A DNA stretch of 64,000 bases from Verrucomicrobiia bacterium DG1235. Its GTDB lineage: Bacteria; Verrucomicrobiota; Verrucomicrobiia; Opitutales; Opitutaceae. The stretch lies in assembly GCA_000155695.1 (NCBI GenBank), contig DS990592.1, forward strand, positions 4,291,820 to 4,355,819. The letters run 5' to 3'. Below are positions 18,203 to 43,014 of this stretch, piece after piece (the first letter of the stretch is position 1; every line of letters begins with the position of its first letter). A program made the translations under genes and the position numbers. Below the pieces are notes generated by a model that was given only the letters and a program-made list of their open reading frames with translations, did no database searches and was not told where the DNA came from.

Positions 18203-18981
18203 GGGAGGATGGTGTCGGCTGGCTGATTTGTGGGCGAGCAAGATTTCGGTTGAATTGCTAGTGGTGTGTCGACTTGGGGATGGGGGGGCTTTCAGAAGCG
18301 AATGCCAAGATAAGCTCTGGTTTGTATCTGGAGGTCTTTCATATGGCGACGGTCACAGTCGGTGGGGCGAATGCTCTGGCAGGGGTTCATGTCGAAAGGG
18401 GGCGCTGCGATCGGTCGGAATTTTTGGAGTTGGGCTGGTTTAATAGGGCGGACTTTCAGGTAGAAGCGGTGGGAGGACGCGGCTTTATTAGTTTCTGTCC
18501 ATTCGGGTTTTGTTGTACTTTTAGGGAGAGGGCGTCCGGATCGGAGTTGGCGACTCTTTGTAGTCATGGGGAGCGGATGTGCATTCCGGATTCGGCAAAG
18601 TAAGGGCTCTCTTCGCATTTTGTGAGATTGTCTAAAAAAATGTGAAGGGAGCATTTCGGGCTTGGGGTCTTCCTCATCCAAACCCCGTCTTATTTTTGTT
18701 CGACCCACTAACCCGAGCCCTTGCCTTTATGTCTTTGTACCCATCGAGGGTGAATGAGTTTTAAGGACTACTTCGAAATAAGTTTACTCTGTTTCTCGAT
18801 CCGCCTCCGCATCTTTAAAGATACGTACACCCCGCCTGCAACTCAGACTACCCTACTATCTGTGACCCTGATTTCATTCTTCAGAAGACAGTACTGTATC
18901 CCGCTTTAGATCTTTTGTCGGCCCACGCGTAGGGCCTGCAATCAAACAAACCAAATCGTGAATTGGTATTCACACTACCCA
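18203..18981. other. Intergenic region upstream of the receptor; no convincing gene
   Basis: The first ~90 bp form the modA upstream region. A minus-strand frame ends at 18292 with codons reading QTRAYLGIRF, which looks like the last strand of an outer-membrane barrel, but no domain precedes it, so it is at most a remnant. The last ~230 bp (18750-18981) are the leader of the TonB receptor gene and include a small GGCCC/GGGCC hairpin (18920-18936). Confidence 0.5.
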
Positions 18982-21900
18982 ATGAATAAATCGATCAAAC
19001 TAATAAACAGATATGCATGGCCTAGATCCGCATCCGGAGCTCTCGCTCTGGGCGCTGCGCTTCTAGTCGCTCCTCTCGGCTCCGCACAGGACGATGAGGA
19101 TGAAAACGTATACGAGCTTTCTCCTTTTACAGTGGAAGGTGATGAGAGCACGGGATACCGCGCGACTTCAACTCTGGCAGGTACTCGTATTCGTACGGAC
19201 CTGAAGGATGTGGGGACCGCTATTTCCGTGGTAACGGAAGATTTCCTGGAGGACACCGGATCTACCGACAATGAGTCGCTACTCCTCTACACGCTCGGAA
19301 CGGAAGTTGGTGGTTCACAAGGTAACTTCGCAGGTGGCGGAGATGGTGGTCGTGTTGACACCGACAGCCAGCGCAGAAATCCGAGCGCTTCCAACCGCGT
19401 ACGTGGTTTGGCCGCTGCCGATAGCGCCCGCGGCTTTTATGCGACTGATATCCCTTGGGATTCCTTCAATGTAGATCGCATCGACATTCAGCGTGGACCA
19501 AACTCGATCCTTTTCGGATTGGGAAGCCCTGCTGGCGTTATCAATGCGAACCTCAAGACGGCGCACTTCGAGAATGGAGGAGATGTTGGACTTGATTTTG
19601 GCAACGACGGCACGTGGCGCGCCACGGTTGATTACAACCAAGTACTGATTGAAGATGAGCTAGCGGTACGCTTTGCGGCACTCGAATCGGACAAAGGCTT
19701 CCAGCAGGATCAGGCTTTCGAGGAAAACAGCCGTATATTCTTCTCCGCCAAATGGGCCCCGTCATTCTTGAAGTCTGAAGGCTCCCACGGTGAGCTCTCA
19801 GCGAACTACGAAGACGGCGACATCATGGCGAACCGCCCACGCGTATTGCCACCCATCGACCGTATCACTCCATGGTTCGATTCTTCCGAGGGCGCCCTCA
19901 ACAAGGGTACTTTCATCACCCGTGATTCCGACGATCCTGATAATTTGCAGACGCTCTTGGAGTATTCCCGTACCGGAACTCCAGGAGCGGCGTACATCGG
20001 AAACGAAGCTCTCGGCCGTATTTTCAACGGTCCGATCGCGTTTTATGACGGAGCCGGCACGCCTTCCTATTACAAGATGGCTGCAGTGACGGTTGACGGT
20101 ACAGGTTATAACTACCTCGGTATCGACGATTCGAAGGACGCGGCTGCGAAGGCCGGAGTTCCTTTCTCCAGCATCGGTGGCTACAAGAGTAATACGCTTT
20201 CCGATCCTACGATCTTCGACTTCTACAACAACTTGCTTGATGGCGACAACAAGCGTGAGTGGCAGGAGTGGGAAGCGTACAACCTCACCTATCGTCACAC
20301 TTGGTTGGATGGTAAGCTCGGTCTCGAGCTCGGCTACGATAAGCAGGAGTACGCCGACGGACAGGTTAATATTATGGATAACTGGGGTCAGTCCATATCC
20401 GTTGATATTGTATCCGAATTCCCTGACGGCACACCTAATCCGAATGTCGGAAGAGCGATGGCCGGTGGTGAAACGCAAAACAACTTCAACGATAACACTG
20501 ATCGTGAGACCTTCCGTTTGCAGGGCACCTACAGCTTCGACTTCCGCGACTCTGGAAACGATTCGCTCGGATTCTTGGGTCGTCACGTGTTCACGGGGCT
20601 CTATTCGCAGCAGCAAATCGACAAGCTGAACACGACTTGGGTCCGCAGCATCACAGATGGCATCGGCGATGGTGGTTCTATCGACGGAGCTGCTCGATAC
20701 CTGTCCAATGTTGTCTACCTGTCTGATGATCTGTCGGGACGGAGTTCCGCATCGGGAGCAAACATCTCTCCGATCAACTACTCGCTTGTCCCGCATGCTA
20801 GTCAGCAAACTATTGTCTATAACGACGATGTTGCCACTCCGTTCTCAGTGCTAAGCTACGACAATGGAGATATCGATTCGCTCTATAAGCAAGCGGTCAA
20901 GTCGCGCGATGAAATCGACTCCACCGTTCTGGTTTGGCAGAGTTGGCTGTTCAACGATACGCTCGTTCCTATGTACGCGTACCGTGACGACTCTTCGGAC
21001 GCGTTGAATGCAGGTTCTCCTCCAGCGGGGCCAAGAGCAGGTTCGGTACTTCCATACGACAGATTGTTCACGGGCGATCAAAAATGGGATCTGCCAGGTA
21101 GCCCTGCAGAGGCAGCCGCTAGCTCCAATGGAGCGACCTTCAATTCGGTAGGTCAAAGCACATCCACCTACAGCCTCGTTTGGCACGCGCCTCAGGCTAT
21201 CAAGGACGCGCTCAAGGGTACCAACGTGAGCCTGTCCTACGCGAATTCTGAGAACTTCTCTCCAGACGCAAGCCGCCGCGGTATCGATGGCGCGGCAGTG
21301 CCAAACCAGATTGGCGATACCGAGGAGTTTGGCATCACCCTCTCTTCGGCTGATGGCAAGCTGCACTTCAAGGTCAATCGTTACGAAACCAACGTAAAGA
21401 ACGCGACTCTATCGAATTCTTCGTTTGGTAACTCATACATGATCGGATTCGGTGAAGGAGTCGCTCGCTGGGGTGCCAAGCAAGCGCAATTGGGTACTCA
21501 CGGCTTCCAAAACAACTACGCGTTGGTTGATCCTGAAAGCGACTTCGATGCGACAAGCAACCCACTGATCGACCCGAACATCGATGTTCTCCGTTACGAG
21601 CCAAACCCCGGCGAGTTCCCAGCCCCCACGGATCCGAACGTTAGCAATCTGTGGTCGGAGGTGTTCGATGGTTTGAGCGAGGCTCAGCGCCAGTCAGCAG
21701 TTCAGGCTGCTCTGGCACGCCAAGAGGGAGCGATTTCCGCTGTTCTCGATTCTGCTAACCGTCCGAGCGCGGCGATCGAAGAATTCTGGAGACAGGATTG
21801 GGACGCGATCACGGGCGAAGGTACTTGGGGTAGCCCGGACCAGGACAATGCTTGGGCTGGCGAGCCAGCGAGCTTCGCAGTGACCAGTGACTTCCGGTCC

Positions 21901-22590
21901 AAAGGTACGGAGTACGAACTCTTCTATCAGCCGACTGATAACTGGAGCATCGTGTTCAATGCGGCTAAGACCGAAGCGCAACGCTTCAACATCGCGAGTT
22001 CTTATGCTAACTATGTGAAAGAGCGCTGGAACCTTTACAAAATCGCCGACGGTGGAGCCTACGGTGATCTAAAGTTGTACAGTGGTTCGTCCACCGATCC
22101 AGAAACCCTTCGCTGGAAGTACGGAACTGAGTTCTATGCAAACTACCTCGCAGGTGTTCTTATCAATCGCTCTCAGGTTCCTGAGCTTCGCGAGTGGAGA
22201 GCGAACTTTATCACCAACTACAGCTTCACGGACGGCCGCCTAGCGGGCCTCAATGTTGGCGGAGCGCTTCGCTGGCAAGACGAGGTAGCGATCGGATATC
22301 CCGGTGTACTCGCCGACGAAGCAATAGAGGAGTTCGGCCTCTTGCCAGGCGACGAGATGTATGACGTAAACAACCCATACATGGGCCCATCGGATACGTC
22401 GCTAGACCTCTGGGCGAATTACACGATCAAGCTCTCCGACAGCGTTGACTGGAAGATTCAGCTCAATGTAAGTAACGTAACTGCCGACGATGAATTGATC
22501 CCTGTCACTGTTAACGTCGACGGAACGCCTGCAGCGTCTCGTATCGCTCCACAAAGAACGTGGACGATTGCTAATACGTTCTCGTTCTAA
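18982..22590 (+). CDS. TonB-dependent outer-membrane receptor (Opitutae type)
   Basis: A 1202-residue receptor. After the signal peptide (ALALGAALLVAPLGSAQ) come an acidic patch and a TonB-box-like YELSPFTV. The plug domain (about 70-190) contains AGTRIRTDLKDVGTAISVVT and the closing VDRIDIQRGPNSILFGLGSPAGVIN. A very long beta-barrel ends in aromatic RTWTIANTFSF, with terminal Phe. It imports a large substrate across the outer membrane using TonB energy. No SusD partner is present, as is common in this group. The ATG at 18982 is preferred to a GTG at 18958. It is followed by a strong terminator. Nearby mannoside genes suggest an oligosaccharide ligand, but this is context only. Confidence 0.92.
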   Translation: MNKSIKLINRYAWPRSASGALALGAALLVAPLGSAQDDEDENVYELSPFTVEGDESTGYRATSTLAGTRIRTDLKDVGTAISVVTEDFLEDTGSTDNESLLLYTLGTEVGGSQGNFAGGGDGGRVDTDSQRRNPSASNRVRGLAAADSARGFYATDIPWDSFNVDRIDIQRGPNSILFGLGSPAGVINANLKTAHFENGGDVGLDFGNDGTWRATVDYNQVLIEDELAVRFAALESDKGFQQDQAFEENSRIFFSAKWAPSFLKSEGSHGELSANYEDGDIMANRPRVLPPIDRITPWFDSSEGALNKGTFITRDSDDPDNLQTLLEYSRTGTPGAAYIGNEALGRIFNGPIAFYDGAGTPSYYKMAAVTVDGTGYNYLGIDDSKDAAAKAGVPFSSIGGYKSNTLSDPTIFDFYNNLLDGDNKREWQEWEAYNLTYRHTWLDGKLGLELGYDKQEYADGQVNIMDNWGQSISVDIVSEFPDGTPNPNVGRAMAGGETQNNFNDNTDRETFRLQGTYSFDFRDSGNDSLGFLGRHVFTGLYSQQQIDKLNTTWVRSITDGIGDGGSIDGAARYLSNVVYLSDDLSGRSSASGANISPINYSLVPHASQQTIVYNDDVATPFSVLSYDNGDIDSLYKQAVKSRDEIDSTVLVWQSWLFNDTLVPMYAYRDDSSDALNAGSPPAGPRAGSVLPYDRLFTGDQKWDLPGSPAEAAASSNGATFNSVGQSTSTYSLVWHAPQAIKDALKGTNVSLSYANSENFSPDASRRGIDGAAVPNQIGDTEEFGITLSSADGKLHFKVNRYETNVKNATLSNSSFGNSYMIGFGEGVARWGAKQAQLGTHGFQNNYALVDPESDFDATSNPLIDPNIDVLRYEPNPGEFPAPTDPNVSNLWSEVFDGLSEAQRQSAVQAALARQEGAISAVLDSANRPSAAIEEFWRQDWDAITGEGTWGSPDQDNAWAGEPASFAVTSDFRSKGTEYELFYQPTDNWSIVFNAAKTEAQRFNIASSYANYVKERWNLYKIADGGAYGDLKLYSGSSTDPETLRWKYGTEFYANYLAGVLINRSQVPELREWRANFITNYSFTDGRLAGLNVGGALRWQDEVAIGYPGVLADEAIEEFGLLPGDEMYDVNNPYMGPSDTSLDLWANYTIKLSDSVDWKIQLNVSNVTADDELIPVTVNVDGTPAASRIAPQRTWTIANTFSF

Positions 22591-24480: not shown

Positions 24481-26283
24481 ATGTCTAAATCGAACGGAAA
24501 ACTATCAGTTAAAGAAATGCTGGCCTATGGCTGCGGTGATTTTGCGTCAGTCCTGTATTGGACGACTTTCATGAAGTACCTAACGTACTTTTACACCGAT
24601 GTGTTCTTGTTGGCTCCTGCAATAGCGGGAGCTCTGCTTGGTTGGAGCCGATCTTTGGATGGAGTGACTGACGTGGCAGTTGGAGTCTGGGCGGATCGCA
24701 ATGAAAGCCGCTGGGGTAAATTTCGGCCTTTCTTGATTTGGGGATGCACGCCTTTTGCGATTGCAGGCGTTCTTACTTTTACAACACCTGGATTTATAGA
24801 TAGCTCGATGGGTAAACTTATTTGGGCTGCTGTTACTTATAATGCCTTAATGATAATGTACACCGTCGTGAATATTCCCTACACGGCGTTGATGGGTGTC
24901 ATGACGGACAATCCAGTTGTTCGAACACGTCTCTCTTCTTATAAATTCATTTTCGCTTTTTCGGCAGGCGTCGTTATCTCTTTTGCATTGCTGCCAACTG
25001 TTGATTTTCTGGGTGGGAAAAATGACCCGCAGAATATGGTTGATGCGATTGTCGCCAAAGGCGTTTCCAGCGAGTTGGCGACATCTCTAGTGGAGGCAGA
25101 TGATGCATCTGGCATCATCAAGGCCATAGTACCGTCTGAAGATCCGCAGACTTTGCTCGATTCTATTGTACAGTCGAATATTCCTCAGATTTTAATAAAC
25201 AAGTTGGTGCCTTCAGGTAAGCCAGAGGACGTCGTCGCTGCACTCGTAGAAGCGGGTAACACTTCTGAAGAGGCAGAGGCAATCATTCAAACTGGTATTC
25301 CCAAGGAGTTGCTTGGCTCGCTTTTGGCAGGGATTGATCCTGAAACAAGTCTATCTAAAATTGTTGATATGGAAGATGATCGAGCTGTTTTGAATGTGCT
25401 TGTTCCTCGTGGGAATCCGCAATTGGGCTGGATGCTTTCTTTTGTGATAATTGGCTTAGCCGCAATTGGTTTCTTTCTGGTCACAGGCTTCAATACCAAG
25501 GAGCGAATTCATCCAAAGGAAGACAAGAGCTCTTCTTTGTTCAAGGATTTCGGCATACTTATCACCAATAAGCCTTGGGTGATCTTGCTTTGTACTACTT
25601 TGACTTGGATTCTTTTTGTAGCGCTTCGAAGCTCAATTGCTCCACACTATTTTAAGTATTATATCTATGATGGATCTGAAGATGCTGTTCTAACGTTTTT
25701 AGGACAGGACTTTAGTTTCACCTACTTGATGTCTACCTTTAATGGCTTAGGGCAGATAGCTTCTGTGTTAGGCGTAGTAGCAATTTTGTTTGCAGCAGAT
25801 AAATTTCCAAAGCGTTTGATGTTTATTGGACTGCTCTCAATGCAAATTGCTTGTACTGCGGCGTACATGTTTTTGGGGCCAAATCAATTAGGTTTGATTT
25901 TTGGATTGGAGATTATTGGTAATTTTGTAGGAGCACCTCTTCCTGTTTTGATGTGGGCGATGTATGCGGATACAGCTGATCATGGCGAATGGAAGAGTGG
26001 GCGTCGCACTACTGCCCTCGTTTTTTCTGCCTCTACAATGAGTCAGAAGTTTGGTTGGGGTATTGCGGCTTACGTGGCTCTCAAGTTACTTGATTTGTCA
26101 GGATTCATTGCGAATACCGAACCGTCAGCTGAGGTTAAGGATAGCCTTGTGCAGCTTATGAGTATTATACCTTCGGCGTTCGGTGTTGTTGCAATTGTCA
26201 TTTTCTTGTTCTTCTCGTTAAACGAGAAAAAGATGGAGGAAATTCGACGAGATTTGAATTCGCGCCGTGGTTTAGAGGAATAG
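24481..26283 (+). CDS. GPH-family sugar:cation symporter with a repeat insertion
   Basis: A 600-residue major-facilitator transporter of the glycoside-pentoside-hexuronide (MelB-like) group, normally about 450-480 residues. N-terminal marks: YGCGDFASVLYW, GWSRSLDGVTDVAVGVWADRNESRWGKFRPF (the family RSxDxxxD and RxGKxRP motifs). Late marks: WAMYADTADHGEWKSGRRTTALVFSAS. Helices 1-5 end near residue 178 and helix 6 starts near 314. Between them lies an extra ~130-residue soluble segment made of two 65-residue repeats, predicted periplasmic. Likely imports mannobiose or a related oligosaccharide for the GH130/epimerase genes. Base composition is visibly more AT-rich than the downstream genes. A strong terminator follows. 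Confidence 0.92.
   Translation: MSKSNGKLSVKEMLAYGCGDFASVLYWTTFMKYLTYFYTDVFLLAPAIAGALLGWSRSLDGVTDVAVGVWADRNESRWGKFRPFLIWGCTPFAIAGVLTFTTPGFIDSSMGKLIWAAVTYNALMIMYTVVNIPYTALMGVMTDNPVVRTRLSSYKFIFAFSAGVVISFALLPTVDFLGGKNDPQNMVDAIVAKGVSSELATSLVEADDASGIIKAIVPSEDPQTLLDSIVQSNIPQILINKLVPSGKPEDVVAALVEAGNTSEEAEAIIQTGIPKELLGSLLAGIDPETSLSKIVDMEDDRAVLNVLVPRGNPQLGWMLSFVIIGLAAIGFFLVTGFNTKERIHPKEDKSSSLFKDFGILITNKPWVILLCTTLTWILFVALRSSIAPHYFKYYIYDGSEDAVLTFLGQDFSFTYLMSTFNGLGQIASVLGVVAILFAADKFPKRLMFIGLLSMQIACTAAYMFLGPNQLGLIFGLEIIGNFVGAPLPVLMWAMYADTADHGEWKSGRRTTALVFSASTMSQKFGWGIAAYVALKLLDLSGFIANTEPSAEVKDSLVQLMSIIPSAFGVVAIVIFLFFSLNEKKMEEIRRDLNSRRGLEE
25024..25413 (+). repeat. Two tandem 65-codon repeats inside the symporter gene
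   Basis: Copy 1 (25024-25218, residues 182-246) and copy 2 (25219-25413, residues 247-311) are exactly the same length and align without gaps at protein level. Each is built from a 39-residue and a 26-residue part beginning with D/K-P-Q/E and ending in a VPSG-like turn. The repeated core is roughly [L/I]VP-x2-[DKN]P[QE]-x5-[IL]V. DNA identity between copies is low, so the duplication is old. Confidence 0.85.
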
Positions 26284-26441: not shown

Positions 26442-27665
26442 TTACTTGGCTCGGAGAGCGTCGATTCGTTTGACGAGCGGGCTGTCGCTTTTGGACATGA
26501 ACTCGAGGTTCTTGTCGATGAGCTCGTTGCGCTGGGCTACGCACATGGCGCTGTAGAGCGGATCGGCGGGCGTGTTGGTGACGTAGTCGACGAGTTTGTC
26601 GATGGTCGATGTCGCAACATGCAAGCGGGTGTCGCTCGATGCGTAGTAGATGTAGACTTCGCCGTCGTCGGTGACGATGGTTCCGTTGGTGAAGGCTACG
26701 TTCATGACGTCGCCGACGAGTTCTTCGCCTTCGGGGGCGATGAGGAATCCGCCGGGGGAGTGGGTGAGTTTTGACGGATCTTCGAGGGAGGTCATGAAGG
26801 CGTAGATGACGTAGCGGAGTCCTGAGGCGCAGCCGCGCACGCCGTGGGCGATGTGGAGCCAGCCTTTAGTAGTCTTGATGGGGGCGTCGCCCTGGCCGTT
26901 TTTGACTTCCTTGATGGTGTGGTACTCGCGGGAGTCGATGATGGTTTCCTTTTCGACGACGGCGTTAGTCATGTCGTCGCAGAGTCCCCAGCCGATGCCG
27001 CCGCCGGAGCCGGCGTCGATGAATCCGTCTTGCGGGCGGGTGTAGAGGGCGTACTTGCCGTCAACGTATTCTGGGTGGAGGACGACGTTTCGCTGTTGAG
27101 CGGAAGGGGTCTTGAGGTCGGGGAGGCGTTCCCAGGTCTTGAGGTCCTTGGTGCGGGCGATGCCGCACTGGGCGACTGCGGAGGAGAGGTCGAAGGGCTT
27201 GGCGTTGGGGTCTTTGCGCTCGGTGCAGAAGAGGCCGTAAATCCAGCCGTCTTCGTGCTTGGTGAGGCGCATGTCGTAGACGTTGGTATCGGGAACGTCG
27301 GTTTCCGGCATGGTGACGGGGTGGTCCCAGAAGCGGAAGTTGTCTACTCCGTTGGGGCTTTCGGCGATGGCGAAGAATGACTTGCGGTCGTTTCCTTCGA
27401 CGCGGGCTGCGACGTAGAACTTGCCGTCGAGCTGGATGGCTCCGGCGTTGAAGGCGCAGTGGACGCCGATGCGTTCCATGAGGTGGGGATTGGTCTCGGG
27501 ATCGAGGTCGTAGGACCAGAAAAGCGGAGCGTGCTTTTCGGTGAGTACGGGATTCTCGTAGCGGTGGAAGATGCCGTTGCCAGGCTCGACCGGAGCGTTT
27601 GGCTGGGCGAGGAATACTTCCTGCTTTTCGACGAGAAGTGCGAGACGTGTTTCGTATGTGCTCAT
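26442..27665 (-). CDS. 4-O-beta-D-mannosyl-D-glucose phosphorylase (GH130)
   Basis: A 407-residue cytoplasmic GH130 enzyme. The whole length matches the subfamily typified by the Bacteroides fragilis mannosylglucose phosphorylase: [107 protein letters not shown] and [27 protein letters not shown]. The Asp in YDMRL is the expected general acid. Reaction: mannosyl-1,4-glucose plus phosphate gives alpha-mannose-1-phosphate plus glucose. The epimerase gene lies immediately upstream on the same strand, supplying the substrate from mannobiose. Specificity is a strong family inference, not tested. Confidence 0.92.
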
Positions 27666-27902: not shown

Positions 27903-29102
27903 TTATTTGGAATTTTGCTCGAGGCGGGCGAGCATTTCGAAGCAGGCGCGGCCGTTGTGGTAGGAGGATTTCCAGGGGCCGGCTTTTTCTTTGTCCATGG
28001 GTCTGCCGTTGGCGTTGACGCCCCAGATCCACTCGCCGTTTTGCTTGTCGACGAAGACGTTTTGGATGTAGTCCCAGATTTTCGTGGCTGCGTCTAGGTA
28101 GCGTTTGTCGCCGGAAAGCTGATACGCGTTGAAGAATCCGACGACGCCTTCTGCTTGGGGCCACCAGCATTTTGTTTCGCTTTGCGGGTGTTCGTTGTGA
28201 AATTCGTCGTAGACGCCGTTGTCTTTTGGGTCGAGGCCGGTTTTGAGCACGAGTTCGGCCATGTCGAGGGCGCGTTGTTTGAACTCTTTTTCGAGTTCGT
28301 GGTCGCCGACGATTTCGGCGGCTTCCCAGAGGAGCCAGCTGCCTTCGATGTCGTGGCCGGGGGAGACGGCGGGATCGATGAGGTTCCAGTCCATGTCGTA
28401 GAAGAGGCCGAATCTTGGCGTATCGGGAAGGATGATACGGTCGGCTATGACGCGGAGGGTTTTAATGCAGGTGGCTTTGACTTCGGGGGAGGGGGCAATT
28501 TTCTGGAGATTAGCGAAGGCCTCGATGAGGTGGAGGTGGTTGTTCATGGTTTTCGGAGCGTCGAGGTCTTCGGCTCCGAGGCGCATTTTCTCGAGTGGGG
28601 TCCAGTCGGCTTCGAAGGTTTCGAGGTAGCCGCCGGATTTGGTGTCCCATGTTTTTTCTTCGATGAGGCGGAAGATTTTTAGGGCAAGGTCGAGGCTGCC
28701 TTGATCCTTGGTCGCCTGATAGTGTTCGGAGAAGGCGTAGACGCAGAAGGCTTGTCCGTAGCACTGCTTTCGGGTGTCGAGCGGTTGGCCGTCGGAGTCG
28801 AGTGTCCAGAAGAAGCCGCCGTTTTCCTTGTCTTCGAAGCGGGTGACGAGTACGTGCTTGGCGTGTCTTGCGAGTTCTTTGTACTCGGGATTTCCGTAGA
28901 GGTCGTAGGCACGGCTGTAGGTCCAGAGCAGGCGGGAAACCATGATGAGGCCGAGGGGGGTGCCGGCGATCGGTTGGTTGGCCGAATCGAGGGCGGAGAT
29001 GAAGCTGTCGGTCGTCCGCAAGCGAGACCAGTAGGGCAGGATGTTGTCGAACAGCTCGGATTTGAAGCTGTTTTTGAGTGTGTCGAAGTCTGGTGAACTC
29101 AT
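27903..29102 (-). CDS. Cellobiose/mannobiose 2-epimerase (AGE superfamily)
   Basis: A 399-residue (alpha/alpha)6-barrel epimerase of the AGE/cellobiose-2-epimerase family. Active-site blocks are all visible: RLLWTYSRAY, RKQCYGQAFCVYAFSEHY, TMNNHLHLIEAF, SPGHDIEGSWLLWEAAE, ETKCWWPQAEGVVGF and PWKSSYHNGRACFEM, giving the usual catalytic and binding histidines. It epimerises the reducing-end sugar at C2; beside a mannosylglucose phosphorylase the expected reaction is mannobiose to mannosylglucose. No signal peptide, so cytoplasmic. It is transcribed ahead of the phosphorylase gene and diverges from the XylR-like regulator. Confidence 0.92.
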   Translation of the reverse strand: MSSPDFDTLKNSFKSELFDNILPYWSRLRTTDSFISALDSANQPIAGTPLGLIMVSRLLWTYSRAYDLYGNPEYKELARHAKHVLVTRFEDKENGGFFWTLDSDGQPLDTRKQCYGQAFCVYAFSEHYQATKDQGSLDLALKIFRLIEEKTWDTKSGGYLETFEADWTPLEKMRLGAEDLDAPKTMNNHLHLIEAFANLQKIAPSPEVKATCIKTLRVIADRIILPDTPRFGLFYDMDWNLIDPAVSPGHDIEGSWLLWEAAEIVGDHELEKEFKQRALDMAELVLKTGLDPKDNGVYDEFHNEHPQSETKCWWPQAEGVVGFFNAYQLSGDKRYLDAATKIWDYIQNVFVDKQNGEWIWGVNANGRPMDKEKAGPWKSSYHNGRACFEMLARLEQNSK

Positions 29103-29294: not shown

Positions 29295-30479
29295 ATGATC
29301 GAGAGACCCCGTGTTGCATTGGTATTGAGAGGTTGGTTGGAGGAGAATCTCAACATTCTTCATAGCCTCGCAAAATTCAAGCGCTTCAATGCGAAGTGGC
29401 ATGTCTTTGTGGATGACCAGGCGAGGGGAGCGGACAATCCTGACTGGTTGCTAGACCAGGGTTGGGACGGCATCATCTGCAAGGAGCGTTCCGGGGAGTT
29501 GTTTCGGAAGGCGCGTGAGCGGGGAATCGCTTGCGTGGACATGTCTGACGACGGGAATCTGCGCGAAGGCTGTCCTAAGATGAGGCCCAACAATCTTGCG
29601 ATCGGGCATACTGGGGCGGAGCATTTCATCGAGAAGGGGTTTCGTCATTTCGCCTATTGCGGTTTTGGGAATGAGCTTTGGTCGCGTGAACGGGGCGAGG
29701 GCTATATCGAGGCTCTCACTTTGGCGGGCAAGAAGTGTGCTGTTTTCGAGTCGGACTATCCTGGGGTGAGCGTGCCGGCCTGGGAGTTCGCGGAAGAGGA
29801 CGAGATGGCGAAGTGGATCGATACCTTGCCGAAGCCGGTGGCGATTCTCGCCTGTAATGATTTGCGGGCGATGCATATCGTGAACGCCTGTCACCAGGGC
29901 GAGTTTCGGGTGCCCGAGGAAGTGGCTATTCTAGGGATCAACAACGACAGCGCTCGCTGCGAGCTCTGTTCGCCTTCGCTTTCGAGTATCCCGGTTGATG
30001 TGACGGAGTATGCGCGGGTGGCCGGCGAGACCTTGGAAGCGTTGATGAAGGGAGCGGATCCGGCGGATTTCAAGGAGGTGACTTATATCGATCCGCTCGA
30101 GGTGGTGACGCGGCGTTCGACGAGTATTCTAGCAGTCGAGGATCCAGCGGTTGCGCAGGCGCTGAATTTGATTCGCGAGAACGCGTGCAAGGGAATCACG
30201 GTGGAGCAGGTGGCCAAGAGCGTACACATTTCGCGAAGCCTTCTCGAGAAGCGGTTTCGCCAATATGTGGGACGTTCTCCGCAGGTGGAAATTCGGCATG
30301 CTCAGGTGATGCGGATCAAGCAGATGTTGACCGAGACGGAGCTTTCTCTTGCTGAAGTGGCGGAGATAACGGGCTTCGAGCATCCCGAGTACATGAGCGT
30401 GGTCTTCAAGCGGCTCACGCATACGACGCCGAGCGCTTACCGCAAGAAGAGCAAGGAGTTGGCGGCGGTGGGTCTGTAG
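29295..30479 (+). CDS. XylR-like transcriptional regulator (LacI-type sensor, AraC HTH)
   Basis: A 394-residue regulator built like E. coli XylR. Residues 1-275 form a periplasmic-binding-protein-like sensor (PRVALVLRGWLEENLNIL, GHTGAEHFIEKGFRHFAYCGF, PVAILACNDLRAMHIVNACHQ, VPEEVAILGINND, LSSIPVDVTEYARVAGETL). Residues 285-385 form an AraC-type double helix-turn-helix (CKGITVEQVAKSVHISRSLLEKRFRQYVGRSP; LAEVAEITGFEHPEYMSVVFKRLT). It should bind a sugar in the cytoplasm and control the divergent epimerase/phosphorylase genes. The ligand is inferred from context to be a mannoside or breakdown product; xylose is possible. Confidence 0.92.
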   Translation: MIERPRVALVLRGWLEENLNILHSLAKFKRFNAKWHVFVDDQARGADNPDWLLDQGWDGIICKERSGELFRKARERGIACVDMSDDGNLREGCPKMRPNNLAIGHTGAEHFIEKGFRHFAYCGFGNELWSRERGEGYIEALTLAGKKCAVFESDYPGVSVPAWEFAEEDEMAKWIDTLPKPVAILACNDLRAMHIVNACHQGEFRVPEEVAILGINNDSARCELCSPSLSSIPVDVTEYARVAGETLEALMKGADPADFKEVTYIDPLEVVTRRSTSILAVEDPAVAQALNLIRENACKGITVEQVAKSVHISRSLLEKRFRQYVGRSPQVEIRHAQVMRIKQMLTETELSLAEVAEITGFEHPEYMSVVFKRLTHTTPSAYRKKSKELAAVGL

Positions 30480-31393: not shown

Positions 31394-33201
31394 ATGAGGA
31401 CCCTCAATCGGTTGTTATATTTAATTTTAATCCCAAGTTTTTGCTTGTCGGGCACTTTACACGGGCAGGTTGAAATTGGAGAGGCTCTCGATCAGCCGGA
31501 TCAACTGTTTACGAGTTCTGGTACCCATGCACCGGTAGCGGAGAATGGAGAGGGTTTTGTGGATGGGGATGCAGTCCGTTTGGGACCCATACCGAATCAG
31601 AGAAGCAATGTTAGCGAGCTAAGCTTGGAGGTGACTGGACCAGCAGCCATAAGTTGGCTACAGAAGGGGCCGGTGAAGAGTTCGGGAATTCGTTTTACTG
31701 AATACGACAGGTTTTTTCATGAGTTGGTTTCTATCACGGATTTGGGAGATGGTTGGCAGCGGTATGAGACGATCCTTGATCGTGAGCAGGAGTTCGAACT
31801 GGTCTGGCGGGTTTATGCCGGAAGTGTGACCTCGAGCCAGGAAGTCATCGAGGGGTACCTTGATTCTGTGTCGGTAAATAAGAAGCCACTGATTCAGACG
31901 CAGCCTCAGTTCGCGAGTGCGTTTGAAGAAGAAAAGGCGACTCTTCGGGTGGATACCTACAACGCTGTTGGCAAGGTTTCGTACCAATGGAGAAAGAATG
32001 GAGATGATATATCAGAAGCGACTTCGGCAGAGTTTGAGTTGAGCCAACTCGCTGATAGTGATTATGGAGATGTTTATGACGTTGTGATAAGCAATGAATA
32101 TGGCGCAACAGTTAGCGACTCTGTGGAGATAAGGAATCTTCGAGAGTTAGCTACTGTTATCTATCCGGATGTAAGAGATTTGAAATTTGAATACTTTACG
32201 ATGGAGGAGCTTGCTGATGAAGCGAAAGGCATTCGGTTCTCAAGTTCTGGTACGCATGCGACCCAGGCGAAGATGTCACTTGTGGCAGAAGGTCCGTTGG
32301 TTGTTCGGTTTCGTACCGAGGAAACGGGAAACTGGATACCGCTGCTGACGATTTCGAATCTCGATACAGGAGAGATGGAGGAATCCATTCGAAGTGCGAC
32401 GACTCGAATCGAGGAATCGGGTTCATTTCTTCTGGAGTGGAAAGTCGAACTGGACGATCCGTATTGGGGAGGGGGATTGGACGGGTCGATCCCTTACCAA
32501 GGCTATGTGGAAGCAGGCTTGGTCCATCAGGCGATTTATTCTATAGAGCTCAATGGAGAGTTAGAAGCGGGCGCGGAGGACGTGGATGTCGTGCACTGGT
32601 CTGATGATGATATTATTCTTTCACCGGATGTTCCGTTGGAAGGGGAGCTTACGTATCAATGGTATCGATCGAATACCTGGTATGTACCATTTGAAAGACT
32701 CGAGGGTGCAACTAGTTCTAGCCTTACGCTTTCGCAAGAAGGGCGGATGCGGACGGGAAGTTTTCGTTTATATGTGACCCGGGATGGCAAACGTTTTGAA
32801 AGCCGAAATTACAATTTAATAGCAGCGACGGACGATTCCGACTCGGATAGCATTGGTGATATATTGGAGCTAGGTTTAGGAGTCGATCCGTTTTCTGAAG
32901 ATGTTCCAATTGAGCTGCGTGTCGTTTGGTATGAGCTGCCGGTTTATTCCGGAGGGATACCAGAAACTCGGCTTGTTCCGTATTGGTGGTCTAATTACAG
33001 GCCCTGGAATGAGAGTGGGTCTTGTGATTGCGATGTGATTTTGGAAGGCAGTTACGATTTGGCAAACTGGATTCCATTGGAGGATTATTCATTGCACGGT
33101 CTTGAGGAATTAGCCGAGCGAGACCGTGTCGGATTTCGGGACAGCAATGCGGAACTGGACAGTTTGATACCTTTTGCTCGTTTTCGCCTGAAAAAGCAGG
33201 A

Positions 33202-33205
<4 letters not shown>
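31394..33205 (+). CDS. Secreted Ig-like modular protein
   Basis: A 603-residue secreted protein with signal MRTLNRLLYLILIPSFCLSGTLHG. It contains at least two copies of a module marked by SSGTHA (about residues 40 and 285), each followed by a VTGPxxISW/VAEGPLVVRF strand. An Ig-like domain (about 165-255) has SYQWRKNGDDISEATS and DYGDVYDVVISNEYG, and a second Ig-like stretch near 415-475 has TYQWYRSNTWYVP. A Ca-binding-like DSDSDSIGDILELGLGVDPFSED follows (about 480), then a Cys-containing C-terminal domain. The Ig and sugar-binding-like modules resemble those of the subtilase at 37 kb. Surface adhesion or polymer binding is a guess. It ends 3 bp inside the convergent U32 gene. Confidence 0.75.
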
Positions 33206-37158: not shown

Positions 37159-40100
37159 ATGAAGAAGGGGTTAAATTTTCGATGGTTACTAGGCGCGGGT
37201 TTGTTGCTGTGCGTGCTTGTCGGAGTGGTTTGGTGGCTGGTGGTTTCGCAATCGTCTGAAGTGGAGGAGGGGCGCGAGTCTTTGGTTGCGGTTTCGGAGG
37301 TGCTTGAGATTCCCGGAGTATCGCCGGGCGCTGATTCGTTTGATGATGAGGTGGCGAGCCCGATCGAAGCAGCGGGAGAGGTGATTGTGGAGAGACTTGC
37401 TGGGAGAGAGGGTGGAGCGTCTTTCAAGCGGGTGAGCCTTGTGGAGACGGAGGGGTTTGATTTCCCGATTCGGGTGGAAAGGTCGGTTGAGCGAGATTTG
37501 GCGACGGGAGAGGAGCGTACGGTGGGCTTTGTGGAGATGGCGGCGGATCGGGTAATTGTTCGCTTCGTGGAAGGGGTGGGCGAGGAGGTGCTACGAGAGC
37601 GATTTCGGGAGTATGACCTTAGGCTTGGGAGACGGTTGATGCGGGCGCCGGTTTTCGAGCTGATATTTGCGGAGGCGACGATAGACGCGGTGCCGGAGGG
37701 GATGGCGCGGTTGTACGGTTCGGATCTTGGAGTGGTTTTGGCGTATGTGGAACCCAACTACATCGTGCACACGATGGTGGCTCCGGATGATCCTTCGTTT
37801 GTGGATGGGTCGCTCTGGGGACTTCATAATACGGGGCAGGAGGGTGGAGTGGTGGATGTGGATATCGATGCTCCGGAAGGGTGGGATATTCGAAGCAGCG
37901 CGGAAGGGATCGTCGTGGCGGTGATCGATACGGGCATAAACTATCTTCATCAGGATTTGGCTCCGAATGTTTGGGTGAACGCGTTGGAGATCCCGGGCAA
38001 TGGGATCGATGACGATGAGAATGGGTTTGTGGACGACGTGCACGGGATAAATGTGATTCGCATGGATGGGGATCCGATGGATGACAATGGGCACGGTACC
38101 CATTGTTCGGGTACGATTGGGGCGCGGGGAAACGATGGGGTTGGCGTGACAGGGGTGGCTTGGGACGTGCAGCTCATGGGGGCGAAGTTTTTGTCAAAGA
38201 ACGGGAGCGGCACGACAGCGGATGCGATCGCTTGTATTGATTATGCGGTGACGATGGGAGCGGATATTTTGAGCAATAGCTGGGGAGGTGGAGCGTTTTC
38301 GCAGTCTCTCTATGATGCGATATCTGAAGCGGAGGCAAATGGGGTCGCGTTTGTGGCGGCAGCGGGAAATGCGGCTTCTGATATCGACAAGGCTCCGGCT
38401 TATCCCGCTGCCTACGAACTCGGTAATGTCGTGTCGGTGGCTTCGGTGGATCGAAGGGGCGATTTGTCAGTATTTTCCAACTACGGGCCTGAAAATGTGG
38501 ATGTGTCCGCTCCCGGTTCGAGCATTCTATCGTCTTGGATTGGAGGGGAGTCAGCGTATGAGACGATTAGCGGCACGTCCATGGCGACTCCGCATGCGAG
38601 TGGGATTCTGGCTTTGTTAATGGCTGAGTATCCTGAGGACGGGTTGGGCGATAACCTGGGTCGGCTTTTTTATGGATCGCGCCCGCTGACGAGTTTGGAG
38701 GATAGGGTGGGGTCTGGCGGATTGGTAAGTCTGGCGAGCTCGCTAGGATTGGCGGAGGTGCCGCAGCCGCCGCGTTTTCGATCACGCCCGCCTCGAAACG
38801 TTTATGCGCCAGTCGGGGCGAGCTTGGCTTTGGAAGCTGAGGTTGAGAGCGAGCTTCCGGTGACCTATCAGTGGTTTTTCGAGGGAGAAGCGTTGGCGGG
38901 CGAGTCTGCGGCGCGTCTGGACTTGGTGGCGGTTTCTCTGGTGCAGGCGGGTGTGTATCGGTTCGAGGCCAGTAATGAGGATCGGAAGGCTAGGGCGTCG
39001 AGCACGGTGGCGGTATTGGAATCGGAACAGCTTTTGGGCGAGGCTTGGGATGCTTCGATTCTCCCTGTCTACACCTACGGGGATGCGGAGTGGTCGGTGT
39101 ATTCTTTTGATTCGGTGATTGGCGGCTCAAGCGTGCGGTCGGGACCAATCGACGACGGAGGCGAATCGGCGATTTTCACCGAGGTATCCGGCCCGGGGCG
39201 TGTATCCTTTTTTTGGAGAGTTTCTGCGGAGCCGTTTTGGGATTATGGCCAGTTTTTGGTAGATGGTGAGTTGCTGTCATCTCTGCGGTCGGAGGATGAT
39301 TGGGTAGAGCAGTCATTCGATCTGGAGGAGGCGAGGGTGTACCGCATGGAATGGCGTTACGTGAAGGACGTTTCTGGAGCGGAGGGGCAGGACGCTTTGT
39401 TCGTGGATGGCTTGATGTTCAGCGCAGGTGGAGAGGGACCGCCCGTGATTCTGGGTCAACCAGAGGGAGCTGTTTTGGGAGGGGGAGCGACTTACACGCT
39501 TAGCGTCGAGGCGGTAGGAGAAGGGTTGCGCTATCAGTGGTTGAAGGACGGTATTGAGCTTTCGGGAGAAACGGATTCGACGTATCGTTTGCTTGCGGAT
39601 GGGGATGATAAGGCGGGAGAGTACATCGCTGTAGTGAGTAATGAATACGGCGAGGCAAGAAGTTTGGCGGCTCGTATTCGGATTGCGGATATAGCGGTGT
39701 CGATTGAAAGGCAGCCGCGAGATTTACAGTTAGATGTGGGGCAAAGTGGTATTTTCGAAGCGAAGGTATCTGGCTCCTTGCCTCTGTCTATGCAATGGTA
39801 CCGGGACGGGATAGCATTGGAGGGTGAGGTGTTAGGAGGCTTGAGAATTGAATCGGCTCGTCTCGATGACGCGGGCGAATATGTATTGCGGGTTTCCAAT
39901 GCGTTTACCTCGGAGCCGATGGAGACAGAGGCTGCGGTTTTGCAGGTAAGAGATGTGAGTCTCGCCCCGAAATTCGTGAAGCAACCGCGATCTGGGTACT
40001 GGCAAACGGGCGAGCCGTTTCAATTGTCTGGGGTGGTGGAAGGCACGTTTCCGTTTTCGTATCGATGGTTTAAGGACGGGGTAGAGTTGGAGGGAGAGAC

Positions 40101-43014
40101 GGAACGTGTGCTCGCTCTAGAATCGGCCGAGCTAGAGGACGGCGGCGTTTATGTTTTGGAGGCTCGCAATGCTTTGGGAACGGCGCGGAGCGAAGGGGCA
40201 CGGGTCCGGATCCTAGGCGACGTGACGGAAGCTTTAGACCTGGAGGGTGTGGAATGGCAGGTCGAGGGAGACGCATATTTTTTTGTGCAGAGTGATTATA
40301 CTTTTGATGGAGTGGACGCCTTGCAGTCTTCGAGTGAGACGAGTTTTCTCGGGGTTGCGACTCTTCTGGAAACTCAGGTGGTTGGACCGATAAACTTTTC
40401 GTTGTATTGGAAACAGGATACGGCAGCTGCTGCGTCGAGAATGGGTCTGTACGTGGATAACAAGCTGGGGGCGGTTCTGAATAGCGAGCGGGATTGGCAT
40501 CGCGTGACCGTATGGGTGCCGGAAGGAATTCACAGTGTGAAGGTTTCGGGGCTGCTTGAGGTGGGAAGCACCGTGTGGCTGGATAAGGCAAGTTTGGATA
40601 CAGCACCGTTTTTATATCATGATTCAGGCTCTCCTGCTTTGGAGGTGGGGGATCCGCTTTATCTTTGGGCTGATGTTAAGGGACCTGGGACGTTGAGCTA
40701 TCAGTGGTTTCGGAATGGTCTGCCGCTGAGGGGGCATGTAGGGAATGAGTACAGAGTTTCGACGGTGAAGCGAAAGGATTCGGGGATCTATCGACTTGAG
40801 GTGAGCAGCGAGTATGGCTTGAGGCGTGGCCCAAACTTTAGGGTGAGGGTAGTAGATGATTTGGCTGAGGATGTCGGAGATGGGTCGGTCGACCTGGAGC
40901 TCTCGGAAGGAAAAACATGGAAGGGTCTGGTGCGAGCTGATGGGAATACTGTTTTGAGAAGCGGTGAGGGGCAGGAGGATATTGATCGCGAGCTGGCTGG
41001 GGTGGTGGAGGGTCCAGGTGTTCTTGTATTTGATCTAGGGATACGATCGGAGGATTGTTGTACGTCGGTTGCATTGCGAGTAGATGGAAGAGAGGTGGCT
41101 CGCTACACCGATACGCAGACGAGTGAGGCGTTGACAAAGCTGACCCAAAGAGCGGTCTGGATTGGGGAAGGGCAGCATTTGGTCAATTGGCGATTTGCGA
41201 GAGGTTCGGGTGGTCCTCCGCGATCGAGAGAGGCATATCTGGACAATATCCGAGTCACGCAAGCTCCGGTTGTTGTTAGGCATCCGCGGGGTTTGCGGGT
41301 GGTAGAGGGTGAAGAAGCGACGTTGGAGGTTTCAGCGTTGGGGCAGGGCGAATTTACGTATCGATGGTTTAAGGACGGGGAGCTTATTGAGGGGGAGGAA
41401 TCGAGGATTCTGGTAATTGCAGAATCGGGTAGTTCGGATGCAGGGCTATATCATTGCGTGGTCTCAAATGCTGCTGGGCTCACGGCAACTTCTAGCGAGG
41501 CGGAACTCGTGGTGGTCACTGGGTTTTACGAGGCTTTGGGGTTGGACTATGGACGATTAGTAGTTGGGGGAGCGGAATGGGAGCCACGCGAGGGAGTGTT
41601 TCCGGGTGGAGGTTTAGCTTTGTCGTATATGGCGACGACTGCTTCGTCCTTTAGTTCGCTTGCTTTCGATATCGAGGTTCCAGACGACGAGCGTCGTGGC
41701 ATTGCATTTTGGATACGAACTTCAGGAATGTCTGAAGGCTCGAGGGTTCGGGTAGTAGAGAACGCAGGAAAACAATGGGAGACTCGAGAGAACAGCGAAT
41801 GGCAGCGTGTGGTATTGCCGCTGGCGAAAACGGGCTTAAATCGTCTGACCTTGAACGTGGTGAAGTCCGTCGGATTGAGGCGCGACGAGCTAGAGGTTTA
41901 TCTCAGCGGCTTCGAGCTGGTTGAGGAGCCTTTGATCTATAGCCAGCCGCAGTCTGGTTCGCGCTACTGGGGCGAGTCGATAGAGTTTGTGTCCGACGTG
42001 ACGGGTCGGGAGCCGATGACGTATCAATGGTCTAGGGATGGGGTCGCTTTGGAAGGAAGCGAGACTCATCTGTTGAGTGATGCGCGACTAAGGATTGGCA
42101 AGGTGAGGGATGCGGATGCGGCTCACTATAAGTTGGGTGTGGAAAATGGGCTGGGGACGATAGAAAGCGATGAGGCCGTATTGGCGGTTTTGACTACGGA
42201 CTATGGAGAGGCTGTCGGAACGCCAGGGACGGCGGTGTGGAGCGAGGGGGGGCGTTTATGGACGGTCGATGAGTCGGATGCGGCGATCGGGCAGAAGTCC
42301 CTATCCGTGTCGGGGCTTGAGCCTCAGTCTGAAAGTGATCTCGTTTTTTGGATACGCGGCCCCGGAGTGATGTCACTGTATTGGAAACTGGATACGCCTA
42401 GTGGAGGTGATCGCATGTCGCTGCTCGTGAGTGGTCAGCTCGTGAGTGGTATAGTTGCCAGCTCTGAGTGGGAACGCTATGAGTTGCGGGTGGATGAGCA
42501 ATTTTATCAGGTGCGGGTGCGGATGAGTAATTTGAGGTCTGAGGAAAGAGAGGCCGGTACGGGCTGGGTGGATTCGATTCGGTTCCAGAACGACGGAGCG
42601 CTGACTTTTGGCGATTGGGCGGCGGGAGCCTTTGCCGGGACGGATTTGCCCGATTCGGAGCGAGGACTTGAGGGGGATCCGGATGAAGACGGAGTGGTGA
42701 ATTTCGTGGAATATGCCTTGGCTCAGAGTCCATTGTCCAAAACGAAGCTGCCTGTTCTGCGGCGTTTTGATAGTGGCGATTCTGCGCAGGTTTTGGTCGA
42801 TTTTTCGCTGGAGGCGTGGGCGGATGATATCGCGTTTGGCTTGGAGGCGAGTCGTGATCTGGAGACCTGGTATCCGCTGCGTAGCGAATTTTTGGTTACA
42901 TTCGACGAAGAAGAAGGCTACGAAGGGACTTTGCTCTACGATTTTGACGATAGGGAGCGGTTGGAAAGCGTTTTTACCCGTATGGCGATTTATTATATCG
43001 GGAACGCGGAGTAG
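37159..43014 (+). CDS. Giant S8 subtilase with about seven Ig-like domains
   Basis: A 1951-residue exported serine protease. An N-terminal hydrophobic anchor or signal (about 9-29) precedes a propeptide-like region (60-215). The subtilisin domain (about 225-510) has the catalytic triad Asp (VAVIDTGIN), His (NGHGTHCSGTIG) and Ser (ISGTSMATPHASG). About seven Ig-like domains follow, each with a YQW/YRW-F-K/R-D/N-G core and a closing AGxYxxxxSN motif. They are interspersed with jelly-roll-like modules (GPINFSLYWKQDTAA, GVMSLYWKLDTPSGG). The C-terminal block is the Opitutae type: FGDWAAGAFAG...DPDEDGVVNFVEYAL. No CTERM tail. Likely a surface or secreted protease acting on polymers or hosts; substrate unknown. 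Confidence 0.88.
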   Translation: MKKGLNFRWLLGAGLLLCVLVGVVWWLVVSQSSEVEEGRESLVAVSEVLEIPGVSPGADSFDDEVASPIEAAGEVIVERLAGREGGASFKRVSLVETEGFDFPIRVERSVERDLATGEERTVGFVEMAADRVIVRFVEGVGEEVLRERFREYDLRLGRRLMRAPVFELIFAEATIDAVPEGMARLYGSDLGVVLAYVEPNYIVHTMVAPDDPSFVDGSLWGLHNTGQEGGVVDVDIDAPEGWDIRSSAEGIVVAVIDTGINYLHQDLAPNVWVNALEIPGNGIDDDENGFVDDVHGINVIRMDGDPMDDNGHGTHCSGTIGARGNDGVGVTGVAWDVQLMGAKFLSKNGSGTTADAIACIDYAVTMGADILSNSWGGGAFSQSLYDAISEAEANGVAFVAAAGNAASDIDKAPAYPAAYELGNVVSVASVDRRGDLSVFSNYGPENVDVSAPGSSILSSWIGGESAYETISGTSMATPHASGILALLMAEYPEDGLGDNLGRLFYGSRPLTSLEDRVGSGGLVSLASSLGLAEVPQPPRFRSRPPRNVYAPVGASLALEAEVESELPVTYQWFFEGEALAGESAARLDLVAVSLVQAGVYRFEASNEDRKARASSTVAVLESEQLLGEAWDASILPVYTYGDAEWSVYSFDSVIGGSSVRSGPIDDGGESAIFTEVSGPGRVSFFWRVSAEPFWDYGQFLVDGELLSSLRSEDDWVEQSFDLEEARVYRMEWRYVKDVSGAEGQDALFVDGLMFSAGGEGPPVILGQPEGAVLGGGATYTLSVEAVGEGLRYQWLKDGIELSGETDSTYRLLADGDDKAGEYIAVVSNEYGEARSLAARIRIADIAVSIERQPRDLQLDVGQSGIFEAKVSGSLPLSMQWYRDGIALEGEVLGGLRIESARLDDAGEYVLRVSNAFTSEPMETEAAVLQVRDVSLAPKFVKQPRSGYWQTGEPFQLSGVVEGTFPFSYRWFKDGVELEGETERVLALESAELEDGGVYVLEARNALGTARSEGARVRILGDVTEALDLEGVEWQVEGDAYFFVQSDYTFDGVDALQSSSETSFLGVATLLETQVVGPINFSLYWKQDTAAAASRMGLYVDNKLGAVLNSERDWHRVTVWVPEGIHSVKVSGLLEVGSTVWLDKASLDTAPFLYHDSGSPALEVGDPLYLWADVKGPGTLSYQWFRNGLPLRGHVGNEYRVSTVKRKDSGIYRLEVSSEYGLRRGPNFRVRVVDDLAEDVGDGSVDLELSEGKTWKGLVRADGNTVLRSGEGQEDIDRELAGVVEGPGVLVFDLGIRSEDCCTSVALRVDGREVARYTDTQTSEALTKLTQRAVWIGEGQHLVNWRFARGSGGPPRSREAYLDNIRVTQAPVVVRHPRGLRVVEGEEATLEVSALGQGEFTYRWFKDGELIEGEESRILVIAESGSSDAGLYHCVVSNAAGLTATSSEAELVVVTGFYEALGLDYGRLVVGGAEWEPREGVFPGGGLALSYMATTASSFSSLAFDIEVPDDERRGIAFWIRTSGMSEGSRVRVVENAGKQWETRENSEWQRVVLPLAKTGLNRLTLNVVKSVGLRRDELEVYLSGFELVEEPLIYSQPQSGSRYWGESIEFVSDVTGREPMTYQWSRDGVALEGSETHLLSDARLRIGKVRDADAAHYKLGVENGLGTIESDEAVLAVLTTDYGEAVGTPGTAVWSEGGRLWTVDESDAAIGQKSLSVSGLEPQSESDLVFWIRGPGVMSLYWKLDTPSGGDRMSLLVSGQLVSGIVASSEWERYELRVDEQFYQVRVRMSNLRSEEREAGTGWVDSIRFQNDGALTFGDWAAGAFAGTDLPDSERGLEGDPDEDGVVNFVEYALAQSPLSKTKLPVLRRFDSGDSAQVLVDFSLEAWADDIAFGLEASRDLETWYPLRSEFLVTFDEEEGYEGTLLYDFDDRERLESVFTRMAIYYIGNAE

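Follow-up and report, generated by a model that had tools for sequence, protein, structure and literature searches.

Ten 13-residue units in the presumably periplasmic loop between helices 5 and 6 of a GPH-type sugar symporter

The melibiose permease of Salmonella, MelB, has the MFS fold, an acidic pair (D55/D59) and a short periplasmic loop between helices 5 and 6. An acidic pair on the second helix presumably forms the cation site of GPH (glycoside-pentoside-hexuronide) carriers, and we take D59 of MelB to play a role at this site. For D55, the assignment to the cation site is given in the title of PDB entry 8fq9. Loop 5-6 of MelBSt is described as periplasmic in the available part of PMC8437787, where G172 in this loop appears as a sensitive position, the G172C mutant showing poor activity and expression. 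There are also known MFS proteins that carry additional parts outside the membrane. We analysed a window, that is, a whole stretch of DNA of 64,000 nucleotides, whose forward strand encodes at 24481-26283 a GPH:cation symporter of 600 residues (TIGR00792, PF13347, MelB fold). This protein has the acidic pair (D60/D64) and, by prediction, the MFS fold in common with MelB; its loop 5-6, however, contains 130 extra residues.

Judged by its sequence, the host protein is a symporter of the GPH/MelB type and otherwise ordinary. TIGR00792 matched it above the curated cutoff (E = 1.9e-89, 300.3 bits compared to 231.35) in two stretches, the best one at residues 13-184, and PF13347 matched it at 8.5e-71 (239.2 bits, best stretch 16-186). 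The PDB sequence search returned MelB and MFSD2A (8 distinct sequences), with every best stretch stopping by residue 181. The symporter core is predicted with high confidence to adopt a MelB-like fold. In the AlphaFold2 model of the whole protein, made with 35 sequences, mean pLDDT was 80.9, with core block means of 63 to 98, mostly above 80; Foldseek placed MelB 7l16 at the top (E = 3.1e-15, TMt 0.83), and ranks 1 to 10 were all MelB or MFSD2A. The TIGR00792 score and the Foldseek result bear out the family assignment made in the earlier note. According to the homolog alignment and the predicted fold, the N-terminal bundle TM1-TM5 (24481-25023, forward strand) carries D60 and D64, which occupy the positions of MelBSt D55 and D59 and are invariant across the 35 rows of the alignment. 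As counted on the alignment, MelB K18, D19, D124 and W128 correspond to S23, V24, N131 and T135 of the window protein, and sugar specificity may therefore differ. From TM6 to the C-terminus (25414-26280, forward strand), homolog comparison and predicted fold indicate that the protein restarts at NPQLGW like its closest homologs.

The substrates are probably beta-1,4-mannobiose-like disaccharides, judging from three neighbours: a GH130-family protein of the mannoside phosphorylase type, likely of the same pathway (26442-27665, reverse strand; PF04041, 1.4e-21), a cellobiose 2-epimerase-like protein (27903-29102, reverse strand; NF041848 EpiA, 7.8e-94; PF07221, 2e-51) and, upstream, a TonB-dependent receptor (18958-22590, forward strand; PF07715 plug, 1.6e-07). 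NCBIfam phosphorylase models match the GH130 protein only far below their cutoffs, and EpiA matches the epimerase-like protein with 315 bits, compared to a cutoff of 800. According to titles cited in PMC8950772, cellobiose 2-epimerase and mannosylglucose phosphorylase form a known mannan-use pathway. A regulator combining a periplasmic-binding-protein-like (LacI-type sugar-binding) domain with an AraC-type HTH lies at 29295-30479 (forward strand; PF13377, PF12833), and a KDPG aldolase is also found downstream of the symporter. The neighbourhood was compared at 46 GPH-relative loci, some of them duplicates and most extending only about 1.5 kb to either side. Relatives of the regulator were present in 10, those of the epimerase in 4 (L039, L041, L054 and L056) and those of the GH130 protein in 1 (L023). 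The longer loci L002, L003 and L004 had, at 1e-8, neither a GH130 nor an epimerase relative, which leaves the window as the main basis for the substrate guess. Two other reading frames of the window were observed: one of 1951 residues (37159-43014), which by eye resembles a protease of the subtilisin type carrying numerous Ig-like domains, and one of 603 residues (31394-33205) that had no Pfam match at 1e-5.

The insert consists of the 130 residues D182-G311 (25024-25413, forward strand), between TM5 and TM6 of the symporter; both the coordinates and the frame put forward in the earlier note were confirmed. Its length could be defined by comparison with 37 full-length homologs, 36 to 65% identical to the symporter. 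Between fixed points, the TM5-TM6 segment was 26 to 29 residues long in all 37 (26 in 22, 27 in 12, 28 in one and 29 in two), in agreement with the short loop that had been expected at this site in the family. It was 157 residues long in the window protein, which thus departs from the short loop typical of GPH carriers. The value of 157 is exactly 27 + 130, and 27 is the length in the closest homologs: where these read LGGDKNPQLGW, the window protein reads LGGKN, followed by the ten units and NPQLGW. The set of 37 was made of proteins spanning query 20-585, leaving out those that did not (L015, L019 and L021, for example, hold partial proteins), duplicates of identical sequence, matches that missed the 1e-20 cut, L054 and L005; the 35-row alignment comprised the window protein and 34 of the 37 (L024, L052 and L053 being omitted). 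L005 matches query 1-593 across 463 codons and therefore has no room for the insert. In the 50 of 252 family genomes listed as matching at 1e-55, those N- and C-terminal pieces that were compared pairwise by eye adjoin, with no insert-sized gap; in some of these genomes one piece alone was listed.

The insert turned out to consist of ten 13-residue units, of 39 nt each, joined without a gap; their consensus is DPQELLDAIVPSG. When it was compared with itself using BLOSUM62, scores over lags 5 to 69 were positive at 13, 26, 39, 52 and 65 alone (the next best being -1), and over lags 10 to 99 they exceeded 10 solely at multiples of 13. The score at lag 13 was 87, compared to a mean of -85 (SD 23.5) over 2000 shuffles of the residues; the top score at any lag from 5 to 69 across these shuffles was 32. 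The units, all on the forward strand, are, in order, DPQNMVDAIVAKG (25024-25062, predicted helix at residues 183-192), VSSELATSLVEAD (25063-25101, 197-205), DASGIIKAIVPSE (25102-25140, 209-216), DPQTLLDSIVQSN (25141-25179, 222-232), IPQILINKLVPSG (25180-25218, 236-242), KPEDVVAALVEAG (25219-25257, 248-257), NTSEEAEAIIQTG (25258-25296, 262-271), IPKELLGSLLAGI (25297-25335, 275-281), DPETSLSKIVDME (25336-25374, 287-295) and DDRAVLNVLVPRG (25375-25413, 300-307). Position 9 of the unit is I or L in all ten and position 10 is V in eight, while proline occupies position 2 in six units and glycine position 13 in five. Mean hydropathy at positions 5, 6, 9 and 10 is 2.6, 3.6, 4.2 and 4.2, respectively, and at most 0.1 elsewhere.

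This period of 13 replaces the exact 65+65-residue repeat that had been described from the sequence. Two gapless blocks of 65 residues do exist, and both start with D/K-P-Q/E and finish with VP-x-G, as had been reported; they are not exact copies, however, since they share 19 of 65 residues, with positive scores at 37 of 65 positions and 77 of 195 nucleotides matching. We rejected 65 residues as the repeat unit, the blocks being five 13-residue units set against five. Shuffling the order of the units gave P = 0.024, uncorrected, for a superperiod of five units (65 residues); this value is the best of five lags tested and is therefore not significant after correction. The 39+26 layout noticed inside the blocks is likewise present, although it really consists of three plus two units of 13.

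One short helix per unit is predicted, at low confidence. AlphaFold2 (35 sequences) gave ten short helices in the insert, with block mean pLDDT of 39 to 62, and single-sequence fold prediction likewise gave one helix per unit (mean pLDDT 41.2). At block values of 39 to 62, any packing of the helices is tentative and the insert may be partly disordered; repeat sequences can also receive confident yet unreal AlphaFold2 structures, as PMC11795689 cautions. The insert is not transmembrane by hydropathy: the maximum among all its 112 windows of 19 residues was 1.15, compared to as much as 2.55 in those sampled from the membrane part. By homology with MelB, it presumably faces the periplasm. The transmembrane segment that the earlier note had named as a point against its own proposal was not found by hydropathy, and the proposal itself, a helical periplasmic module, stands in so far as helices are predicted and the loop is periplasmic in MelB, with disorder still possible at these pLDDT values.

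The reading that we put first, still tentatively, is that of a mannobiose-type symporter with a periplasmic alpha-solenoid acting as a docking surface or a spacer. A sugar:cation symporter would have gained exactly ten 13-residue units in its periplasmic TM5-TM6 loop. Each unit would form one short capped helix, in which positions 1-3 supply an Asp/Pro N-cap, positions 5, 6, 9 and 10 line up as the hydrophobic stripe, and positions 11-13 make a Pro/Ser/Gly turn. Packed side by side, the ten helices may build a small acidic alpha-solenoid (the insert has 22 acidic and 8 basic residues), seated on the N-terminal bundle at its periplasmic face. This solenoid could offer a docking surface, or act as a spacer, for a further component of the periplasm or envelope; the transport core would work as in other GPH carriers. 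The more ambitious claim, namely an undescribed type of alpha-solenoid with one capped helix per 13 residues, grown by repeat expansion in the periplasmic loop of a GPH symporter and turned into a docking domain linking sugar uptake with another envelope component, appears rather unlikely.

A second explanation ranks only narrowly behind docking or spacing: the insert would be a structural passenger, a helical in-frame repeat expanded or inserted once in the lineage and tolerated by the loop, soluble, harmless and of no specific role. The distribution of the insert bears on this point. So far it has been seen in one species. No convincing relative beyond its own locus was found in its own genome and 95 relatives, in 252 family genomes searched with a 65-residue profile, in 372 order genomes, or in 387 phylum genomes searched both with the protein and with the profile (these Verrucomicrobiota sets overlap, with at most 387 genomes per search, the first pass was loose, and a few genomes had some candidates unscored). 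The contigs of 84,980 species, scanned with six symporter peptides, two of them in or at the edge of the insert, yielded 5 relatives, whose matched spans of 456 to 465 codons leave no room for it. Phages, plasmids and viral contigs gave no convincing relative, PHROGs gave weak matches only, and PDB sequences searched with the single insert gave none. No Pfam or NCBIfam profile covers the insert, and no Pfam match to the whole insert, or to either half of it, comes near a cutoff; a common annotated domain, the other objection that had been foreseen, was thus not found. In the open-licence literature searched, no 13-residue helical repeat of this kind was found, and for insertions in MFS or GPH proteins, judged by title and start of abstract, only PMC8437787 and PMC10576003 were relevant.

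A number of weak matches were rejected as chance. ProC-like frames (L027, L032) and frames L028-L031 matched the insert with E values of 0.001 to 0.09, and sigma-54-like and helicase-like frames (L057 and L058) matched the 65-residue profile with E values of 0.001 and 0.006; these presumptive names come from our recognition of the sequences. All were weak and showed no clear 13-residue periodicity: over 60 residues, the lag-13 score reached at most 15 for L029-L032, 25 for L027 and L028, and 30 for L057 and L058, compared to 82 for the insert. A plasmid alcohol dehydrogenase (E 0.5), the weak PHROG and Pfam matches, and the PDB matches to clathrin, AmiC and others (E of at least 0.12) and to PstA and the RNA polymerase subunit Rpo4 (E of at least 0.27) were also attributed to chance.

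Occurrence in a single species is as compatible with a passenger as with a function. The absence of the insert from all 37 homologs compared speaks for a passenger, as does the start of the array with DPQ, the native loop restarting with NPQ. Less easily accommodated are the ten units with not one gap, the hydrophobic stripe retained in most of them, and a protein pattern that has outlasted long divergence. The last point comes from the DNA. Between-unit identity at the first, second and third codon positions was 0.38, 0.56 and 0.26, compared to 0.30, 0.28 and 0.27 when codons were shuffled within units; third positions are randomised while second positions are alike, so that the array is not a product of recent DNA slippage. 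Tandem Repeats Finder found no DNA tandem repeat, and the closest pair of units matched at 22 of 39 nucleotides. These three observations together indicate that the array has long diverged as DNA, with its protein pattern kept. GC3 is 0.423 in the insert and 0.428 in the remainder of the gene, compared to 0.59-0.80 in the four neighbours measured, so that insert and host gene may have a common history. For the symporter gene as a whole (GC3 about 0.43), a horizontal origin or a different expression class is possible.

An origin by duplication of the native loop and the start of TM6 was considered and rejected: NPQLGWMLSFVII scored -14 against the units, compared to 5.4 to 19.2 for the units themselves in a leave-one-out comparison. 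The top window outside the insert, with a score of 6.9, is the helix before TM12, DSLVQLMSIIPSA (residues 548-566, 26122-26178). This score was reached by 4 of 16682 windows in the 37 homologs, two of them being the same pre-TM12 helix (L041 and L044), so that DSLVQLMSIIPSA resembles the unit only weakly. The pre-TM12 helix was seen to score high against the unit in several homologs too.

The remaining explanations are much less probable. A gating or regulatory element, in which the solenoid would move with TM5 and TM6 and tune the alternating-access cycle or sense an envelope signal, seems improbable to us, although the sensitivity of MelBSt loop 5-6 (G172C, in the part of PMC8437787 cited above) implies that a domain placed there could affect expression or transport. 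We hold a substrate-handling module, which would bind oligosaccharide or funnel it to the periplasmic mouth of the carrier, to be slightly more improbable still. The expected periplasmic placement and the mannan-type gene neighbourhood would suit such a module, but its 130 residues lack Trp, Tyr, Phe, His and Cys altogether and include 2 Arg only. Aromatic stacking is usual in sugar sites, and with no F, W, Y or H an aromatic platform for carbohydrate binding is absent. This composition speaks against the substrate capture that the earlier note had listed among the possible roles. An assembly or annotation artefact is very improbable indeed: one genome alone has the insert, but the 600-residue frame is intact on a 5.5 Mb contig, GC3 of the insert matches that of the remainder of the gene, and the units are diverged rather than copied.

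If the insert folds, as the docking or spacer reading supposes, it represents a transporter that gained an extra-membrane domain of exactly ten units, and its helical repeat is a very short one. As a passenger, it would reveal how permissive loop 5-6 of a GPH carrier can be, despite the sensitivity of the MelBSt loop to mutation reported in PMC8437787 (available part). The insert is a simple case for asking whether loop domains work or are merely tolerated.

Precedents for such extensions come from two MFS cases. In the 14-helix transporter Rv1410 and its homologue MHAS2168, TM11 and TM12 are extended into the periplasm, and it has been proposed that these extensions guide the lipid substrate to the lipoprotein LprG; of the truncation mutants named in the available part of that study, three of four failed and one kept some activity (PMC10576003). 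Like the insert, these are periplasmic helical extensions of an MFS transporter, but they lengthen TM11 and TM12 of a lipid transporter, whereas the window protein has a repeat array between TM5 and TM6, and no homology is claimed. Luminal domain 4 of SV2A is likewise a domain added to a non-cytoplasmic MFS loop, repetitive in fold and flexible relative to the core; in the portion of PMC11026379 available, it is a beta-helix between TM7 and TM8, in contrast to the predicted helices between TM5 and TM6 here, and again no homology is claimed. Both cases make a docking role plausible, though they do not prove it.

At the level of the repeat, the nearest comparison is with the armadillo and HEAT alpha-solenoids, which consist of tandem amphipathic helices, as predicted for the insert. 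A 26-residue profile weakly matched the designed proteins 4rv1 (E 9.5e-7) and 4hxt (6.3e-4), no single stretch passing alone; we take these designs to be ARM-like. The insert, whose unit has 13 residues and one predicted helix and which no Pfam repeat family matches, differs in this respect from the ARM unit of 42 residues and three helices and from the HEAT unit of about 40 residues and two helices; alpha-solenoids are, according to the available part of the same source, frequently protein-binding (PMC11514114).
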